Source: Acidobacteriota bacterium (GTDB lineage Bacteria > Acidobacteriota > Terriglobia > Terriglobales > Acidobacteriaceae). From it: a stretch of 38,900 bases of DNA. The DNA lies in assembly GCA_021793405.1 (NCBI GenBank), contig JAJYSV010000038.1, forward strand, positions 1-38,900, read 5' to 3'. Made by a program: the position numbers and the translations under genes. Under the pieces are notes generated by a model, which made no database searches, was not told the origin of the DNA, and was given only the letters and a program-made list of their open reading frames with translations. Positions 4,072-30,510 of this stretch are shown one piece after another (within the stretch, counting starts at the first letter, position 1; the number at the start of each line of letters is the position of its first letter).

Positions 4072-5493
<1,422 letters not shown>

Positions 5494-9508: not shown

Positions 9509-12268
9509 ATGCTCACAATCTCGAAACCAATATCGGCGAGTCAGGCACGTACGTATCACGCGCGAGAGTTTGCATCTCAGAAGCAGAACTATTGGAGCCG
9601 TGACCAGCAGGGTCACAGCGAGTGGCAGGGCAGGCTCGCCGAGCAATGGAAGCTCGCGGGAGCAGTCGGGGCAGAACACTTCGCGCGGCTGAGCGAGGGA
9701 CAGCATCCGCACACCGAAGAACAGCTTGTGCGGCACCAGATTTCGAGAAATTACGAAGGAAAATTTGGCAGAGAGGTGAACAGCGCCGAACATCGCGCCG
9801 GATGGGATGCCACATTTTCTGCGCCAAAGTCGGTGTCTCTCACTGCGCTTGTAGGTGGTGATGACCGCGTTCGGGAAGCGCACAGGGAGAGCGTTCGCGT
9901 GGCGCTGACGGAGTTGGAGAGATACACGCAGGCTCGGATCGGCAATGTGCATTCCCCGGAGACGACTGGAAAATTCATCGCCGCTACGTTTGAACACGAT
10001 ACTGCCCGGCCAGTCGATGGCTACGCAGCACCACAGCTTCATACCCATGCCGTCATTTTCAATGTGACCGAGCGAGAGAACGGCCAAACACGCGCCCTGC
10101 AACCGCACGAGATGTTCGTGTCACAACGCTACGCTACTGCGGTCTACCGATCCGAGTTGGCGTTGCATCTGGAAAGGCTGGGTTATGAACTGGAGCGAGG
10201 CAAGCACGGGCAGCCGGAGGTTCGAGGTTATACGAAGGAATATCTGGAGGCTTCCAGTCCGCGACGGGAACAGATCAAGGATCATCTGCGGGAGCAAGGA
10301 ATGGACGGCGCGGCGGCAGCGCAAATCGCCGCCCACCACACGCGCGACCGCAAGGAACTGCTGTCGCCTGAAGAAGTCCTACATCGGCACCGCGAATTGG
10401 CCGTGCAATATGGCCATCAGGCCGACCGGGTCGTTGCACAGGCGCGGGAACATAAGCAATACCAGATGCGTGAACCGCAGATGCAGGCGCAGCGAGCCGT
10501 GACTTGGGCACGAGATCATGTCTTCGAGAGATCGGCGGTGCAGGACAGCCGAGCCATTCTTGAAACAGCGTTGGTACGCGGCATGGGAGAAACCACGTAT
10601 GCCCAGGTCAGGCAGGAGTTAGACCGCAGGATCAGCGCAGGCGAGTTCCGCGAAGTCGCGCACAGCGGCGTAGGCCGACAGTACACGACCGCCGCAATGG
10701 CCGGCATGGAGCGCGAGATCGTTGTCAGGATGCAGGAAGGCAATCGGCGGGACTACGGCGATCCCATGCTGGTTTCGCCGCAGGTGCGTATCGCTATCGA
10801 GGATCGTCACCTGGAACTGAATCTTTCGCAGCGCCGGGTCGTGGACGAAATCTTTCTTTCGCGTGAAAGGGTCGTGGGCTTGGATGGCATTGCTGGCGCC
10901 GGTAAGACGACGGCATTGGCCGTTGTCCGCGAAGGCGCGGAGAGCGATGGCTACAGAGTGGAGGGCTTTGCGCCGACATCGCGTGCGGCGCAGAAACTCG
11001 CCGAGTCTGGGATGGAAACATCCACACTGCAAAAGCATCTGGCGCGTGGCCAGCAGCCGGACACCAGCGAGAAGAGGCTCTATGTTCTCGATGAATCCTC
11101 GCTGGCATCGACCCGGCAGGTGCATGAATTTCTGAACCGGCTCCATCCTAATGATCGTGTGTTGCTGGTTGGCGACCGGAGGCAACATGAACCGGTCGAG
11201 GCTGGTCGGCCCTTCGCGCAACTTCAGGACGCAGGGATGAAAACAGTAAAGCTCGAACAGATTGTGCGCCAGAAAGAGCCGGAACTGAAACAGGTGGTCG
11301 AGCAGCTTGCGCGAGGAGAAGTAGAGAAAGCTGTCCAGAGTCTTGACCGACAGGGTCGCGTCCATGAAATTCAGGGCCACGACGACCGCATCACAGCTAT
11401 CGCCCGCGACTACGCGAAATCGCCGGAGAACGCGCTTGTGGTATCTCCCGACAATCGATCCCGCATGGAGATCAACGAACGCATTCATACGGAATTGCAG
11501 AGCCGAGGCATGGTAAGTGCTGATGAACACCGCATCCGAACGCTGCTTCCGCGCCAGGATATGACTGGCGCAGATCGTACCTGGGCCGAGCGATATGCGG
11601 TAGGAGACGTGCTTCGGTACTCGCGCACGTCGAAGGAAACGGGAATCGGAAAAGGCGAGTACGCACAGGTGAAAAGCATCGACGCTCCAAATAATCGGCT
11701 GACAGTCGAGTTACACAACGGTACGGAGATCAACTATGACCCACGCCGACAGCAGGGAGTTTCCGTTTATCGCGAGGAGATGCGGAGCTTCTCCGTGGGC
11801 GACCGCATCCAGTTCACAGCGCCAGTGAACGATCTCAGAGTAGCAAACCGCGAATTGGGCACCATAGAGGGTATCAACAACGACTGGCGATTGAATTTGA
11901 AGTTTGACAATGGCCGCGCAATCGAACTTGATCTGCACAGACCACTGCATCTTGACTATGGCTATGCAATGACCAGCCACTCCAGTCAAGGACAAACTGC
12001 CGACCGCATCCTGATTCATGTGGATACGGAACTGGGCGCAAAAGACCTGCTGAATGGCCGCATGGCGTATGTGGCCGTCTCACGGGGAGCCTACGATGCT
12101 CAGATATACACGAACGACCGCGAGAAACTACCCCAGGCTCTCGGTCATGATGTATCGCGGCAGAGTGCGCATGTACCCGCGATTCAGCAGGAGGCAATGA
12201 CTCAAAAGATAGAACCACAACCCGCGCACACGAATGAAATTGCTCGCGACTTCGGTTTTGGTCTCTGA
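9509..12268 (+). CDS. MobF (TrwC/TraI-type) conjugative relaxase-helicase
   Basis: A 919-aa protein. Residues 1-300 form the HUH relaxase domain, with Tyr16 and Tyr28 near the N-terminus (ARTYHAREF, NYWS) as candidate nucleophiles and the metal triad segment LHTHAVIF (HTH 178-180). A RecD-like SF1 helicase follows, with Walker A GIAGAGKT at 460-467, Walker B VLDES near 526-530, VGDRRQ soon after, and the late motif YAMTSHSSQGQTADR. It nicks oriT and pumps the strand during transfer. It is shorter than F TraI, as usual for mobilisable MobF elements. It starts 80 bp after the membrane protein and is followed at once by a 143-bp inverted repeat. Confidence 0.92.
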   Translation: MLTISKPISASQARTYHAREFASQKQNYWSRDQQGHSEWQGRLAEQWKLAGAVGAEHFARLSEGQHPHTEEQLVRHQISRNYEGKFGREVNSAEHRAGWDATFSAPKSVSLTALVGGDDRVREAHRESVRVALTELERYTQARIGNVHSPETTGKFIAATFEHDTARPVDGYAAPQLHTHAVIFNVTERENGQTRALQPHEMFVSQRYATAVYRSELALHLERLGYELERGKHGQPEVRGYTKEYLEASSPRREQIKDHLREQGMDGAAAAQIAAHHTRDRKELLSPEEVLHRHRELAVQYGHQADRVVAQAREHKQYQMREPQMQAQRAVTWARDHVFERSAVQDSRAILETALVRGMGETTYAQVRQELDRRISAGEFREVAHSGVGRQYTTAAMAGMEREIVVRMQEGNRRDYGDPMLVSPQVRIAIEDRHLELNLSQRRVVDEIFLSRERVVGLDGIAGAGKTTALAVVREGAESDGYRVEGFAPTSRAAQKLAESGMETSTLQKHLARGQQPDTSEKRLYVLDESSLASTRQVHEFLNRLHPNDRVLLVGDRRQHEPVEAGRPFAQLQDAGMKTVKLEQIVRQKEPELKQVVEQLARGEVEKAVQSLDRQGRVHEIQGHDDRITAIARDYAKSPENALVVSPDNRSRMEINERIHTELQSRGMVSADEHRIRTLLPRQDMTGADRTWAERYAVGDVLRYSRTSKETGIGKGEYAQVKSIDAPNNRLTVELHNGTEINYDPRRQQGVSVYREEMRSFSVGDRIQFTAPVNDLRVANRELGTIEGINNDWRLNLKFDNGRAIELDLHRPLHLDYGYAMTSHSSQGQTADRILIHVDTELGAKDLLNGRMAYVAVSRGAYDAQIYTNDREKLPQALGHDVSRQSAHVPAIQQEAMTQKIEPQPAHTNEIARDFGFGL

Positions 12269-12282
12269 CGCTGCATTCCTAA

Positions 12283-12425
12283 ATGACATTCCCCGGATAG
12301 TCAGAGCGTAGCCGAGGCCCGGCCAGTGTCAAGGCCGCGCTGCGCGCGCCGCATTCGCGGTCGAAGAGCCTTGACACCGGCCTCCCAGCCTCGGCTTATC
12401 ATTCCAATTATCCGGGGAATGTTAT
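12283..12425. repeat. 143-bp imperfect inverted repeat at the mobilisation/cargo boundary
   Basis: The outer arms AATGACATTCCCCGGATA (12283-12300) and its complement ending at 12425 differ at one base. Further in, AGCCGAGGC pairs with GCCTCGGCT (ending 12396), and GTGTCAAGGC (12326-12335) pairs with GCCTTGACAC (12368-12377). The central loop is GC-rich and self-complementary. It starts 14 bp after the relaxase stop and ends before the SIR2 gene. There is no T-tract as in a terminator, and integron attC core sequences were not found. Confidence 0.8.
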
Positions 12426-12463
12426 TGTTCAAACCCCGTCAATTGTGGGGCGAGGTGAACATT

Positions 12464-13435
12464 GTGACTTCATTTCTCATTGGAGCTGGGTTCAATGCCG
12501 ATGCGGGACGGATCAGAACGCCGTACGACGCGGACTGCTCGTATCCACTCGTCAGTGATGTAGCGCGCCTGTGCTTCGGTCTCGATTCGGTCTCGATCCC
12601 GAATGGAAAATCCGTAGAAAATCTCTTTGCTGATGCTCACGAAAATCACGACGACGCTCCCATGAAACGTCTTACCGACAAGGTCATGGAAGCCGATTAT
12701 TACCTTGGCTCGACACTCGCCGCATCTGAAGAATCGAATTGTTACCGTCGATTCTTTGAAGCATTTCCGGGGTCATCTTTCTTGACATTTAATTACGATT
12801 CGCTCCCGGAGATATGTTTGTTTCGCATGAAGCGCTGGTTTCCCGACGATGGATATGGAGTCCCTGTAGAAACGGATGTGGAGATAGAGGGCCTTCTGCC
12901 TCCAAATCGAAGGTCGCAGTCAATCGTCTTGCACCTACACGGCAGCTTTTGTCTTCGCAGTTCTGAATTCGAGCTTCATGGGAACCCGAGAGGAGGTACG
13001 GGATGGGTTGACCTACTTCCGTCCCCTAAGTTCAAGTTTGACCCAGACAGTCTCAGTGGTGTCTTTTTTCCGTATCGCCGCGTGCTACCGGATGAAGGGT
13101 ACATGACAACCGATGGTCGTGTGATTGCACCTGTCCCAAATAAAGATCCGCAACTCGCACAGGCGTTTGTTCAGGCTATATATCAAAGAGCATGTGGTGT
13201 AGTAAGGAAGTCGGATGTCCTTATATCAATTGGTTACAGCTTCAATGTGCATGATTGCGCGTCGTATGACCCCATTCTGCTTGCACTGGAAAAGTCGCCC
13301 AGTAGAAGGTTGGTTGTTGTTTCGCCTGACGCGCAAGGCGCGGCAAGTAGACTTGCAGTTGAATACCGCCACCTTTCGATTACTGCGGTTAATAGGACGT
13401 TCAGGCAATGGGCTGACGGGTGTTTTCCCTTTTAA
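12464..13435 (+). CDS. SIR2-domain protein, probable NAD-linked defence effector
   Basis: A 323-aa protein starting at GTG 12464 (V47 of the longer frame) behind GAGGTG, so that it opens directly with the NAD-binding TSFLIGAGFNADAG. Other SIR2 motifs are SFLTFNYDSLPE (NYD motif), VLHLHGSF (catalytic His region) and ISIGYSFNVHD (late IGYS-type motif). No second domain or membrane segment is present. Bacterial SIR2-like proteins of this build act as NADases in abortive anti-phage systems, alone or with partners. Here the next gene is an M48 metallopeptidase 175 bp on. An upstream ATG at 12419 lies in the inverted repeat and has no spaced ribosome site. Confidence 0.82.
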   Translation: MTSFLIGAGFNADAGRIRTPYDADCSYPLVSDVARLCFGLDSVSIPNGKSVENLFADAHENHDDAPMKRLTDKVMEADYYLGSTLAASEESNCYRRFFEAFPGSSFLTFNYDSLPEICLFRMKRWFPDDGYGVPVETDVEIEGLLPPNRRSQSIVLHLHGSFCLRSSEFELHGNPRGGTGWVDLLPSPKFKFDPDSLSGVFFPYRRVLPDEGYMTTDGRVIAPVPNKDPQLAQAFVQAIYQRACGVVRKSDVLISIGYSFNVHDCASYDPILLALEKSPSRRLVVVSPDAQGAASRLAVEYRHLSITAVNRTFRQWADGCFPF

Positions 13436-13610
13436 GCAAACAGCCAAGGCGTGTCCGAGGGCAATCCTGGATTAATACTATCCTTCGCACCGTGTTCGCG
13501 GAGGCTCAATACAACTTACCTATCGAGTTGGCGATCCACCAAGTTGTGCCTTGTCGACGGGGGAGGGGTGTATAGTAAATTCGTCTCTTACTCACAAATT
13601 GGGGATTCCG

Positions 13611-15097
13611 ATGAAGAAATTTGGCCGCCCCTTCGGTATGTTTGCTCTGCTGTTGGCGATACCCTTGATCGCCTTTGTTGCGGCGGAAGGTATTCAGTGG
13701 AAATCCGACTCCACTCTTCGTCAGACACTTCTAAAAGAATTTCCGGATAAGGCAGCTACCATCAACAATGTTACGGTGACAAGTCTCTGCGAGAACCCCG
13801 ATGTGCGTTCAGATCAAGGGTTCAGTGACGTCTGTAGCCAAAATGACAACATCGGATGGATGAAGTCTGGCGCGATTTTTGCGGCATGCTTCGGGATATT
13901 GATGGTAGCAATCATCAAGCTGGCGGGAACCGTTGCGCGCAAACGAAGAACTCTCCTTCTGTTGCTATTTGCTCCCGGTCTGCATCTGACCATGCTGGCG
14001 ACGAGCGCTTTGGCCCTGCTCTATGCAGCACTAGGTATTGCTGCTCTCTACTATGGCGAGTCCGCTCTCATCGGGAGAATCCACATAGGCATCATGCTGG
14101 CTTTTGGAATTGGCGCAATCGTTGCCGTTGGTTCTCTGATCCGCGCCCAATTCATTACGGTGCGGAGAGCCAGTACGACGATCATTGGCAAGAAGTTGGA
14201 ACGCCAGCAGCATATACGTCTTTGGAGTTTTATTGAAACGTTGGCTGATCGGATGGGTGCCGAACGACCTCAGAGCATCGTGGCAGGACTCGAACCAAAT
14301 TTCTACGTGACTGAAGCAGATGTCATTTGTGTAGACGGAAAGCTGCGTGGCAGAACGATGTACATCTCGTTGCCGCTGTGTCGAATTCTGAATGCAGACG
14401 AATTCACCGCTGTCCTTGGTCACGAACTCGGACATTACAAGGGACTCGATACGAAATTCAGCAAGCGTTTTTTCCAATCTATCGAGGCGCTTCCCAAGCA
14501 GTCACAAGCATAGCATCTGGTTTCTCTTCAAAAGGGAGCGCAGCCGATTTTGTCCTCCTGCCGGTGTTTCTCATTTTGTCCTTCTTTTTGGATTGTTTTT
14601 CTGCCGCTGAAAACGAGATCAGCAGGGATAGAGAACTGGCAGCGGACAATGAGGCGGCCAAGGCTGTTTCGGCAAAGAGCATGGCGACCTCGCTCGTGAA
14701 GATCCACGCATTCTCGGCTATCTGGCCCGTGGTGAGGAACCACATGAAGGAAGTGATTGGGGAAGGTCAGATAGTTACAAACGCGAGCCTGTTGTTCGCG
14801 AATATCGCGTCCCAGATTTCCGCTGCGGACGCTTTCGGTGATGTTTCGCAGGAAGGGCCAATCCATCCGACCGACACGCATCCTCCGCTCTCTACCAGAC
14901 TGAGAAGTTTGAATTTCGACCTCACAGACCTAACGACCGATGCGGCAATAACTTCGCCCGAAACCTCTGCCATCCACTTGGTGGATGCTGCTGACGCGTT
15001 GGAAGGCGAGTTAAGCGAGATCGTTCAGGCTCTCATGATGAAATCCGGCGAAGCACTACCTCGTACGGAATCAGTAACTGCTGCGGCTACCGCTTAG
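13611..15097 (+). CDS. Membrane-bound M48-family metallopeptidase read across a -1 frameshift
   Basis: Two overlapping frames form one M48 protease of about 495 aa. The first (from ATG 13611 behind GGGGA) holds a signal or TM start, further TM helices and HELGH at 271-275, then stops at 14513. The second frame continues the family match (PIYRGASQAV, then FFLDCFSAAENEISRDRELAADNEAA with the third zinc ligand E) to 15097. The joint falls on T-TTT-TTC at 14468-14474, in exactly the X-XXY-YYZ register of a -1 ribosomal slippery heptamer. It may be programmed frameshifting or a one-base loss in a T-run that inactivates the gene. If no slip occurs the product ends just after the zinc-binding helix. 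Confidence 0.78.
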
Positions 15098-20938: not shown

Positions 20939-20993
20939 ATAGCTTCGAGCTTTTCAACGCATGATCTTGGGGGTCGTAAATTGCTACAAAAAC

Positions 20994-21015
20994 ACTGTAG
21001 GGACTTTTGTAGGGA
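20994..21015. repeat. Putative integrase arm site pair, right end
   Basis: A 22-bp sequence beginning ACTGTAGGGACTTTTG, identical to 4218-4239 inside the integrase gene at the other end of the element. It lies 130 bp inside the right att core in otherwise gene-free DNA (20939-21145). Confidence 0.72.
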
Positions 21016-21144: not shown

Positions 21145-21191
<47 letters not shown>

Positions 21192-21675: not shown

Positions 21676-22230
21676 TTATACTGCCAAACCCTGCCCAGAT
21701 GCCAAATCGTTGATTAACTGAGGCTTGACGTTGATTCTCTGCGTGGTTTCGAGCGCGGAACTTTTCTCCTGAGATCTGGAAACGAGTTCGCCCAGGCGCT
21801 CCAAGCTGTTTGTGTAGAGGGTGGCGTCCTGCGAAGCCCTCGATATCGACACATAGGCGAAGCGATCACTGACGAGTTCTGGGTGAATCCCCGTATCGAC
21901 ATGGACGAGCACTCGATCTGCGGTCAGTCCCTGGGCAATATGCGATGTGACGGCATAGCCGTGGTCGAGATGAATGCTGGCACGGCCTTCCGGTGAGAGC
22001 GCCTCAACGGTGCCTTGCTCTCGATTGGCGATTCGCTGGCCCTTCAGTGGAGCGTTGAATTGTAGGCGCTCGCCGAGCGACAACTGGATCGTAATGGGCT
22101 TGTAGGTGTCTACCCCTTTAAGGCGTGACGTGTCATAGGAGACCTGCACTCCATCTGGTCGGCAGACTGTGATTTGGTGCTGGTCTGGCTGGACGTTGGC
22201 CACTTCCGCATAGGTGCCGGCAGCCAGGTT
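21676..22230 (-). pseudogene. MobF relaxase, C-terminal fragment
   Basis: The last 185 or so residues of a TrwC/TraI relaxase-helicase, aligning to the end of the intact relaxase at 9509-12268: AAGTYAEVANVQPDQHQITV, then GERLQFNAPLKGQRIANREQ, HLDHGYAVTSHIAQGLTADR and VHVDTGIHPELVSDRFAYVS. A loop of roughly 15 residues before HLDHGY is missing compared with the intact copy. The relaxase and ATPase parts are absent. It marks an older related mobilisable element outside the right att site. Confidence 0.82.
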
Positions 22231-22343
22231 ACCCGCATTGCCGTCATCCTTAGCTCCACCGGGAGTAACGGCTGCCCTGTTGACATCTTTCCAATGCAAA
22301 CAATCTAATCGTCCTGACAAAATACTCTGAGGTGGGCAAAAGA

Positions 22344-23294
22344 ATGACATTTATGAATCGCCGGAAATTTGTACAACTCTCGGGCGGGGCCTGTCTGGCG
22401 GGCGGACTCACTCCGGCCGCGGAACCCGTTGTCGCAGAGCCAACCACAGTCACAGCCGACAGCGGTACTTCTCCCAGTCGCATCGGACTCGTTGTCTGGA
22501 TCGGAGAGGGCCAGTCGATCGATGCGGCGATACGACGCGTGCATCGCCTGGGCCTGCCCACCTGCCAGATCGGCTTCAGGCATCTTACTGCGGAAGTGGC
22601 GGCTCCCGTAAAAGAGGCTCTTTCAAAATATGGAGTGGAGGCGACCGCCTTCTCCGAACACGGACCCGGACAGAGACTCTTTGATTTCTATCGGGGTCCG
22701 GAAACGATCGGTATCGTACCCCCGACCACTCGTCCGGCGCGCATCGCCAACTTGAAACTGGCGGCCGATGTTGCGGCGCGGTGCGGCATCCCTGCCATCC
22801 ACACGCACTGCGGCTTCATTCCAGAAAATCCCAACGACCCCCTATACCCGCAGGCGGTCGCCGCCGTCAAAGAGGTGGCGGAGCATTGCCGCGAGCGCGG
22901 TACCATATTCCTCTGCGAAACTGGTGAGGAAACCCCCACCACGCTGCTGCGCCTCATTCAGGATGTCGGCACCGGCAACGTCTTCGTGAACCTCGACCTC
23001 GCCAACCTCATCCTCTACGGCAAAGGCAACCCGGTGGACGCCATGACAGTTTTTGGCCGCTATGTGCGCGGCGTCCACGCCAAAGACGGCCTCTTCCCCA
23101 CCGGTACCAGGGAACTGGGCAAACCGGTTCCCTTCGGCCAGGGAGATGTCGATTTCCCCGCCATCATCAAGCGGCTCCGGCAGGTCGGGTACACTGGCTC
23201 TCTCACCATAGAAATGGAAACTGAAGGAGGCCAGTCGGATCAGCAGATTCTTCAATCGAAGGCCTTCCTGCAGCGACTCATCCGGAGCAGTTAG
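22344..23294 (+). CDS. Tat-exported TIM-barrel sugar isomerase/epimerase family protein
   Basis: A 316-aa protein with a twin-arginine signal (MNRRKFVQLSGGACLAGGL) followed by a xylose-isomerase-like TIM barrel. Likely metal ligands lie in FLCETGEE, FVNLDLANL, RGVHAKDG and LTIEMETE. Family members isomerise or epimerise keto-sugars or act on inositols in the periplasm; the substrate is unknown. The ATG at 22344 follows GAGGTG; an ATG at 22353 is also possible. Its stop overlaps the convergent exchanger fragment by 4 bp. Confidence 0.85.
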   Translation: MTFMNRRKFVQLSGGACLAGGLTPAAEPVVAEPTTVTADSGTSPSRIGLVVWIGEGQSIDAAIRRVHRLGLPTCQIGFRHLTAEVAAPVKEALSKYGVEATAFSEHGPGQRLFDFYRGPETIGIVPPTTRPARIANLKLAADVAARCGIPAIHTHCGFIPENPNDPLYPQAVAAVKEVAEHCRERGTIFLCETGEETPTTLLRLIQDVGTGNVFVNLDLANLILYGKGNPVDAMTVFGRYVRGVHAKDGLFPTGTRELGKPVPFGQGDVDFPAIIKRLRQVGYTGSLTIEMETEGGQSDQQILQSKAFLQRLIRSS

Positions 23295-30007: not shown

Positions 30008-30290
30008 CACAGTCATAGGTGGTTGCCAGGTCCGGTTCGGCCTTCGCCAATCGATGCCTTCAAGCAGCATCGACAGCTGCGCACGGGTCAGAGATACCTT
30101 TCCACTGTCGGCCTGCGTCCACACAAATCGTCCCCGCTCGAGCTTCTTTCGAAAACAGACAAAGGCCGTCGCCGTCGAACCAGAGCAGCTTGATCAGATC
30201 GCCGCGCCGGCCACGGAACGCAAACACATGACCGGAGAGTGGCGCCTGTTCGAGGGCCGTCTGTACCAGTGCGCTGAGCCCGGTGAAGTC
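30005..30290 (-). pseudogene. tnpB: IS66 TnpB (Orf2) fragment, interrupted and frameshifted
   Basis: On the minus strand: DFTGLSALVQTALEQAPLSG, HVFAFRGRRGDLIKLLWFDG, DGLCLF, then after a one-base T-run frameshift near 30163, RKKLERGRFVWTQADSGKVS and TRAQLSMLLEGIDWRRPNRT, ending at a stop at 30005-30007. This is the IS66 Orf2 signature. The usual start is replaced by a group II intron 3' end at 30291, so the intron split this gene. Confidence 0.8.
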
Positions 30291-30510
30291 GGGTAAGAGA
30301 GCGTCATTGCTGACGCTCCCTCCCCTAACAACCGGACATGAAAGTTTCCCTTCATCCGGCTCAAGCCATGTGTAAGCCCTTTGGAGTGGAGAGCCGGTCA
30401 TCAGCGACAGTTTGTCGTATTTTCGAACCTTGGCCCTTTGTGCAAAATACGAGCGCCACCGGGGATCGAAAGGGTTGGCTTCCCCTTTGATCTTTCGGTG
30501 TCGTTGTATG
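30291..30510 (-). mobile_element. Group II intron 3' remnant (RT tail, domains V and VI)
   Basis: On the minus strand, domain V starts GAGCCGGATGAAGGGAAACT and ends in CCGGTT (30330-30362): AGC triad, GAAA loop and bulged base pattern. Domain VI is the GAGCGTC/GACGCTC hairpin (30299-30318), with the intron end at about 30291-30294. Upstream, IQRHRKIKGEANPFDPRWRS followed by YFAQRAK resembles the C-terminal part of intron-encoded reverse transcriptases. The rest of the intron is lost at the IS110 junction near 30510. Confidence 0.65.

Follow-up and report, generated by a model that had tools for sequence, protein, structure and literature searches.

Most of the known single-strand promoters and origins come from plasmids of enterobacteria and from rolling-circle elements of Firmicutes. 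Frpo is described as folding as single-stranded DNA and so rebuilding −10 and −35 boxes (PMC9849209; PMC11541004). For plasmid leading regions, genes for anti-defence proteins, methyltransferases, SSB and toxin-antitoxin systems are reported exclusively on the transferred strand among the 300 commonest families (PMC11541004). In ICEBs1, sso1 is reported immediately downstream of the relaxase gene, active in one orientation and redundant with another region (PMC4595007). In the DNA analyzed here, a stretch of 38,900 nucleotides from an Acidobacteriota bacterium (GCA_021793405.1, contig JAJYSV010000038.1; herein referred to as the window), a large palindrome follows a relaxase gene. This palindrome may be a hairpin promoter or primer site working on the single-stranded DNA of integrative mobilizable elements (IMEs). 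Among the explanations weighed, this one is the best supported, and we give it somewhat less than an even chance.

The large imperfect palindrome that an earlier note on this DNA had placed between relaxase and cargo was confirmed at 12284–12424, 15 bp 3' of the relaxase stop codon; a pattern search located the outer-arm motif at 12282–12296 and 12412–12426. The three paired blocks noted earlier are present and nested. The outer stem, TGACATTCCCCGGAT/ATCCGGGGAATGTTA (12284–12298 and 12410–12424), was found by motif search and family alignment, its left arm also by folding. The middle stem, GCCGAGGC/GCCTCGGC (12311–12318 and 12388–12395), and the inner stem, GTCAAGGC/GCCTTGAC (12321–12335 and 12368–12382), come from the family alignment, and the fold places a GC-rich loop with small hairpins at 12336–12367. 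On the minus strand, the left arm of the inner stem holds a −35-like hexamer, TTGACA (12327–12332), the last base of which is variable in the family. At a distance of 16 bases, an internal loop holds a −10-like hexamer, TACGCT (12305–12310), which reads TAYGCT in most family copies.

Folding of 12275–12435, suggested earlier for both single-stranded DNA and RNA, went far beyond chance in each case. The DNA fold has −49.0 kcal/mol compared with −22.9 (sd 2.7) in shuffles (z −9.6), the RNA fold has −90.1 kcal/mol (z −11.7), and 0 of 200 shuffles were as low in either case. In the minus-strand fold of the window hairpin, the −35 has a predicted pairing of 0.99 and the −10 of 0.43; the plus-strand fold is similar (0.98 and 0.39). 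In two other copies (L028, 3625–3767, and L046, 7820–7961), the GC-rich loop appears by eye to have a reversed orientation with respect to the arms, as though it had been flipped within the inner stem; both strands of these copies score nearly alike.

The hairpin lies within an integrated element bordered by a perfect direct repeat of 46 bp, the two copies of which were found by repeat search at 4115–4160 (attL candidate) and 21146–21191 (attR candidate). The repeat looks like the last half of a tRNA-Asn gene (3' side); ARAGORN called no tRNA in the window. The left end of the element carries a gene for a tyrosine integrase (473 aa, 4072–5493, minus strand; PF00589, 1.8e-22). The gene whose 3' end adjoins the hairpin encodes a TrwC/MobF relaxase-helicase (919 aa, 9509–12268, plus strand; PF08751, 1e-83; MobF NF041492 above cut-off), and the cargo is located to its right, all on the plus strand. 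The first cargo ORF (323 aa, 12464–13435) has no family match in Pfam, PADLOC, PHROGs, or NCBIfam. It is followed by two overlapping ORFs (13551–15097) that match the M48 peptidase profile in different parts, and by a 1512-aa helicase/REase resembling anti-phage proteins (15413–19951; NCBIfam ProA and Hhe below cut-offs; PADLOC PDC-S37 and Hhe).

Several other features were observed. A 53% relative of the 323-aa protein is encoded in L087, an element of type B (see below), at a different position, about 3.3 kb to the right of the hairpin. A 25-bp repeat is present in three copies near both element ends (4215–4239, 4368–4392, and 20991–21015); these are perhaps integrase arm sites. An inverted repeat, CTTGACAATAT...ATATTGTCAAG, is conserved before the 393-aa gene of type A elements (upstream of 6769 in the window) and may be an operator or oriT. 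Just past the right 46-bp repeat, 21676–22350 (minus strand) encodes a C-terminal relaxase fragment, 36% identical to the window relaxase over the final 207 residues of the latter, which suggests that a second element follows in tandem. A match to a Group II intron domain (RF00029, 55.8 bits, above the gathering score) is located further along, in the contig's second half (30288–30364, minus strand).

Copies of the hairpin were found in the same genome (C3, 84%; C99, 75%; and C54, where the copy is partial, with 81% over a portion of the query). BLAST of a first draw of genomes found the hairpin in 7 of 61, five of them belonging to the genus of the window, its own genome included. A covariance model, herein referred to as R1, was built from 28 copies and used with a cut-off of E ≤ 1e-4; its seeds were picked largely by the outer arms, so that conservation of the outer arms is inflated. 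R1 matches were found in 73 of 398 genomes and 19 of 79 genera of the family Acidobacteriaceae. In a class-wide draw, 19 of 299 genomes had a match: 15 belong to the same family, and the 4 outside it are weak (E 7e-5 to 3e-7). A pattern search of genome contigs gave 41 stretches, of which 21 were counted as members by their blocks and 20 are apparently due to chance. All 21 members are titled Acidobacteria or Acidobacteriaceae and come from MAGs or isolates, KBS 146 among them.

Among viral contigs, the pattern search gave two matches, neither with the inner blocks of the family. The window copy had a single weak match in 72,556 plasmid records (Deinococcus, E 0.07), a phage search with the C3 copy gave no convincing relative, and searches of open-access PMC papers showed no description of this hairpin family. 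Contrary to the refuting case set out in the earlier note (no copies elsewhere and loss of pairing in homologues), copies are numerous and paired.

The pairing was analyzed in an alignment of 51 distinct copies, from which the low-scoring copies and some others of the 77 copies examined were left out. In the three stems, 93.1% of the cells pair, compared with at most 44.9% for slid partners. The covariation score is 0.115 versus 0.052 in shuffles, none of 500 of which reached 0.115, although the arms of a palindrome can correct each other and thereby mimic covariation. An additional alignment has 16 rows, comprising 14 low-scoring, diverged copies and 2 typical ones. In these diverged copies stem blocks are replaced on both arms, for example GCCCAACC/GGTTGGGC, and 12 of the 19 predicted pairs are changed on both sides.

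The best-kept letters of the family are found on the left arm only, where the minus strand reads TTGAC, 16 bases, TAYGCT; this one-arm rule is partly circular because copies were oriented by AGC[AG]TAG in the left arm or by the promoter signal itself. The named copies were oriented by placing AGC[AG]TAG in the left arm, and the diverged L155, L171, L175, and L176 by the promoter signal, opposite to their model-score orientation. Between the −35 and the −10, no gap interrupts the left arm in any of the 51 rows; of the −10 bases, T(−12) is kept in 50 rows and A(−11) and T(−7) in all 51. Of 74 copies in which the left-arm blocks were countable, 64 have them at a distance of 16, whereas right-arm distances vary: 20 in 46 of 76 copies, 21 in 15, and 12 to 46 in the remainder. 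The TA...T triad occurs at a spacing of 16 in 72 of the 77 copies; at no other spacing between 8 and 25 is it present in more than 1 copy. L004, a degenerate copy, is included in these counts of distance and spacing. Since the copies share ancestry, these are not 77 independent cases, and comparison among the 14 related diverged copies is the better test of selection.

Among these 14 copies, the commonest letter has on average a share of 0.96 at the −35 and of 0.81 at the −10. The left loop beside the −10 reaches 0.43, the right loop 0.58, the spacer 0.61, the outer arms 0.69–0.70, and the middle stems about 0.7. Among 17 copies scoring 55–90 bits, the −35 (at least 5 of 6 letters) is kept in 15, the −10 triad in 14, the middle block in 8, and the outer arm in 1. 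In the predicted folds, the −35 and the spacer lie in the stem and the −10 largely in an internal loop. In minimum-energy folds, the −10 is fully unpaired in 13 of 77 copies and unpaired at 4 or more of its 6 bases in 43. In nearly all copies, the −10 matches the consensus at just 3–4 of 6 positions. The right arm also carries TTGACA, 20 bases, and TATCAT or TATTAT (a 5/6 match to the −10 at a long spacing) in 13 of 77 copies, the window included.

A TrwC relaxase or tyrosine integrase gene is located within 6 kb of 69 of the 77 copies; the others, some of them on short stretches, are L023, L004, L146, L150, L156, L161, L166, and L176. The 3' end of a relaxase gene lies within 250 bp of the hairpin, on either side, in 31 of 77. 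By a neighbour rule, three element types were distinguished, and 15 copies remained unclassified. In type A (24 copies), the 3' end of the TrwC relaxase gene is within 60 bp of the left arm. In type B (27 copies), the left arm faces xis or the integrase gene, and the right side is relaxase or cargo; these counts follow the rule, which also assigns L152, L154, and L159 to this type, even though the latter two have flanks that look like type A. In type C (11 copies), the right arm faces the 3' end of a gene for a 336-aa integrase, and a tRNA-Leu gene is located on the left in 7 of 9 loci scanned (L106 counted for L013). The relaxases of types A and B are 29% identical, and relative to the relaxase gene the hairpin has the same orientation in types A and C and is inverted in type B. 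For 49 of 61 hairpins, the nearest hairpin by sequence belongs to the same element type, so the hairpins mostly travel with their backbones. On the left of L154, L159, and L160, apparently only the last part of the relaxase gene is left beside the hairpin, with other genes upstream (L154 and L159 by eye).

At 20 other TrwC relaxase loci, from 9 genomes of the family, no R1 match better than E 0.52 was found, and four of these relaxases are 75–77% identical to that of the window over the match. Downstream of the 20 genes, the best hairpins are mostly at about shuffle level; three have z < −4, none is family-like, and one locus extends only 62 bases. Thus, the hairpin is dispensable. At L188, a short left-arm-like resemblance follows the relaxase gene and is not significant.

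As a promoter or primer site, acting much as Frpo/ssi does in conjugative plasmids or an sso in rolling-circle elements, the palindrome would work as follows. The minus strand, once single, would fold into the hairpin. Its 3' arm would be the non-template strand, with TTGACA in the paired stem and TAYGCT, 16 bases apart from it, in a largely unpaired bubble; the 5' arm would be the template strand. RNA polymerase would bind, and the RNA would run from the hairpin base towards the right flank, where it would prime second-strand synthesis and possibly express the genes of that flank. A folded promoter requires stems that pair while their sequence is freer to change, promoter letters that are fixed on one of the arms, and a bubble at the −10, and the family shows these features. 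Because the best-kept letters are a one-arm −35/−10 at fixed spacing, they point to use by RNA polymerase and not by a recombinase. The minus strand would presumably be the transferred or displaced one, and priming, rather than gene expression, would be the main role. In type A, the first right-hand ORFs of at least 150 aa are evenly split by strand (12 plus, 12 minus), unlike the plasmid leading-region genes described in PMC11541004; this favours priming over gene expression, or another function. An Frpo-like expression of the cargo was set aside on the same even split. Against a promoter or primer site stand an oriT that was not located, the inverted orientation of the hairpin in type B, the 20 relaxase loci lacking it, and the 13 copies with a −10-like hexamer on the right arm. 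In the search for oriT, the stretches conserved upstream of relaxase genes and the inverted repeat before the 393-aa gene share no motif by eye.

A bidirectional transcription terminator, insulating the relaxase or integrase module from the cargo, is an unlikely explanation, though several observations fit it. The stem is strong, and genes often end within about 70 bp of the hairpin: the relaxase gene in type A, int in type C, and, among type B slots, the relaxase gene in the emptier L087 and L102. In L139, L141, and L170, the left cargo also ends close by. In the family, T content in the first 12 bases outside the hairpin is mildly raised at both edges (0.317 right, 0.324 left) relative to positions further out (0.19–0.27). 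However, as the earlier note stated, no T-tract directly follows the window hairpin, and in type B the hairpin has the 5' side of xis or int to its left. Nor would a plain terminator retain TTGAC-16-TAYGCT on a single arm when its stems change.

The cargo bears on a further explanation, a recombination or cassette junction. Within each type, conservation of the backbone extends to the hairpin or close to it, and the opposite side is variable; L085 has an additional 1.26-kb insertion on the left. In a first set of type A elements, no two right flanks were alike except those of the two copies of L100. In a second set, compared by eye, the start of the right flank is shared by L147, L148, L153, L159, L160, and L162, and a short shared start was found in L140, L142, L172, and L173. 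In type B, the slot between hairpin and relaxase gene ranges from 3 bp (L087), 28 bp (L102), and 82 bp (L105) up to 4010 bp (L009). Of 20 cargo proteins scanned, 4 have no Pfam family at E ≤ 0.01; the families in the remaining ones include kinase, alpha/beta hydrolase DUF900, HEAT repeats, beta-lactamase fold, outer-membrane proteins, ABC transporter, Fic, AIPR, AAA-DUF4143, and metallophosphatases.

A second or remnant hairpin copy was found at the far edge of the cargo in 5 of 77 loci. Second copies bound the cargo in L100 (two full copies; the same locus as L028) and L093 (one full and one short), in the same orientation as the first. Short remnants are located at the far cargo edge in L085 (E 0.78), L013 (E 0.02–0.04), and L086 (an exact 11-mer found by pattern); the first two are weak as profile matches, and the remnants carry weight because of their location at the expected cargo edge. 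Since the outer arms are palindromic, the remnants of L013 and L086 are not surely orientable. In 40 later loci and the 20 relaxase loci, no further remnants were found at E ≤ 1, where shuffles gave 0–2. No cassette arrays were seen, and side-by-side copies occur in L100 and L093 only.

The earlier note proposed a cassette insertion site or a strand-specific recombination substrate. At such a junction, cargo would be exchanged through a tyrosine recombinase acting on the folded strand or through homologous exchange between the copies of co-resident elements. The expected differing genes beside the copies were indeed found, as were the five loci with a second or remnant copy, and one genome (G000) has 11 TrwC relaxase matches, so elements coexist. 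The small number of such loci speaks against the junction, as do hairpins that mostly stay with their backbones and cargo edges that do not coincide with the hairpin. Several such edges are about 60 bases off; in L096 and L098, which are type C slots holding cargo, the break is about 60 bp away from the hairpin start of the empty element. Edge duplications are not clearly enriched (at least 5 bases, 8 of 76 versus 4.5 expected; at least 6 bases, 0 of 76 versus 1.7). No recombinase was tied to the site, and the best-kept letters are a −35/−10. The cassette idea is thus partly supported and not the best fit, and a junction of this kind seems quite improbable.

We consider it doubtful that the site acts in double-stranded form, as an ordinary leftward promoter or protein-binding site, or that it gives rise to a small structured RNA, the third suggestion of the earlier note. 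TTGACA-16-TAYGCT makes a fair sigma70 promoter, in type B aimed at xis and int, which are about 200 bp away in most cases. In types A and C, however, it is aimed into the 3' end of the relaxase gene or towards the tRNA, and a double-strand promoter needs no pairing of its spacer with the other arm. For the structured RNA, an Rfam scan gave no family reaching the gathering score at the hairpin. The proximity to relaxase genes and the terminal inverted repeats might suggest an origin of transfer for these elements or a MITE (a transposable element of the non-autonomous kind), but either is very improbable, since the hairpin is common to type A and B relaxases only 29% identical and yet absent beside close relatives, its edge duplications stay near expectation, and its copies cluster near relaxase and integrase genes instead of being dispersed.

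A broader claim, which we put forward only speculatively, is that the hairpin promoter or primer site represents a new, sequence-unrelated class of single-strand promoter or origin, portable among three lineages of Acidobacteriota IMEs and doubling as a junction for exchange of cargo, defence genes included. If so, one hairpin would tie establishment in the recipient to cargo turnover. A folded site outside the groups where such sites are mainly known would show how the IMEs of Acidobacteriota establish after transfer. Its signature is stem pairing that is kept, a −35/−10 fixed on one arm, and a −10 in a bubble; with it, the R1 model could find such sites and predict the transferred strand. 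The hairpin also marks a spot of cargo turnover, likely including defence genes.

Among the known systems, integron attC sites share with the family a long imperfect palindrome that follows a gene and adjoins variable cargo. The core boxes of attC are RYYYAAC and GTTRRRY; by eye, neither was seen in the window hairpin, and the family has mostly one copy per element and no arrays. REP elements and MITEs are likewise palindromic intergenic repeats at several places in a genome; the family differs from them by its low copy number, positions tied to IME genes, and edges without clear enrichment of duplications. The sso1 of ICEBs1 and the sso of plasmids are noncoding, folded, one-sided, and dispensable, as the family appears to be, and lie directly 3' of a relaxase gene, as in type A. 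The family differs from sso1 in having one long interrupted stem instead of three stem-loops, and it belongs to another phylum and is associated with a MOBF relaxase.

Frpo and the ssi sites of F and ColIb-P9 resemble the family in design, with a large hairpin on one strand, a −35/−10 rebuilt by folding, the same strand geometry, and a conjugation-related element as host. In the leading region of F, the two strongest 160-base hairpins were found on the minus strand, upstream of rightward genes, and a third, nearly as strong, on the plus strand; by position, the two strongest are probably Frpo1 and Frpo2. Neither of these two gave a promoter in a consensus scan that required at least 8 of 12 letters, so that the comparison with F is positional only. 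No sequence relation to Frpo or ssi was seen in the plasmid search. The family hairpin is shorter than these sites and, instead of being tied to a co-oriented run of genes, is located beside the relaxase and integrase genes of Acidobacteriota IMEs.
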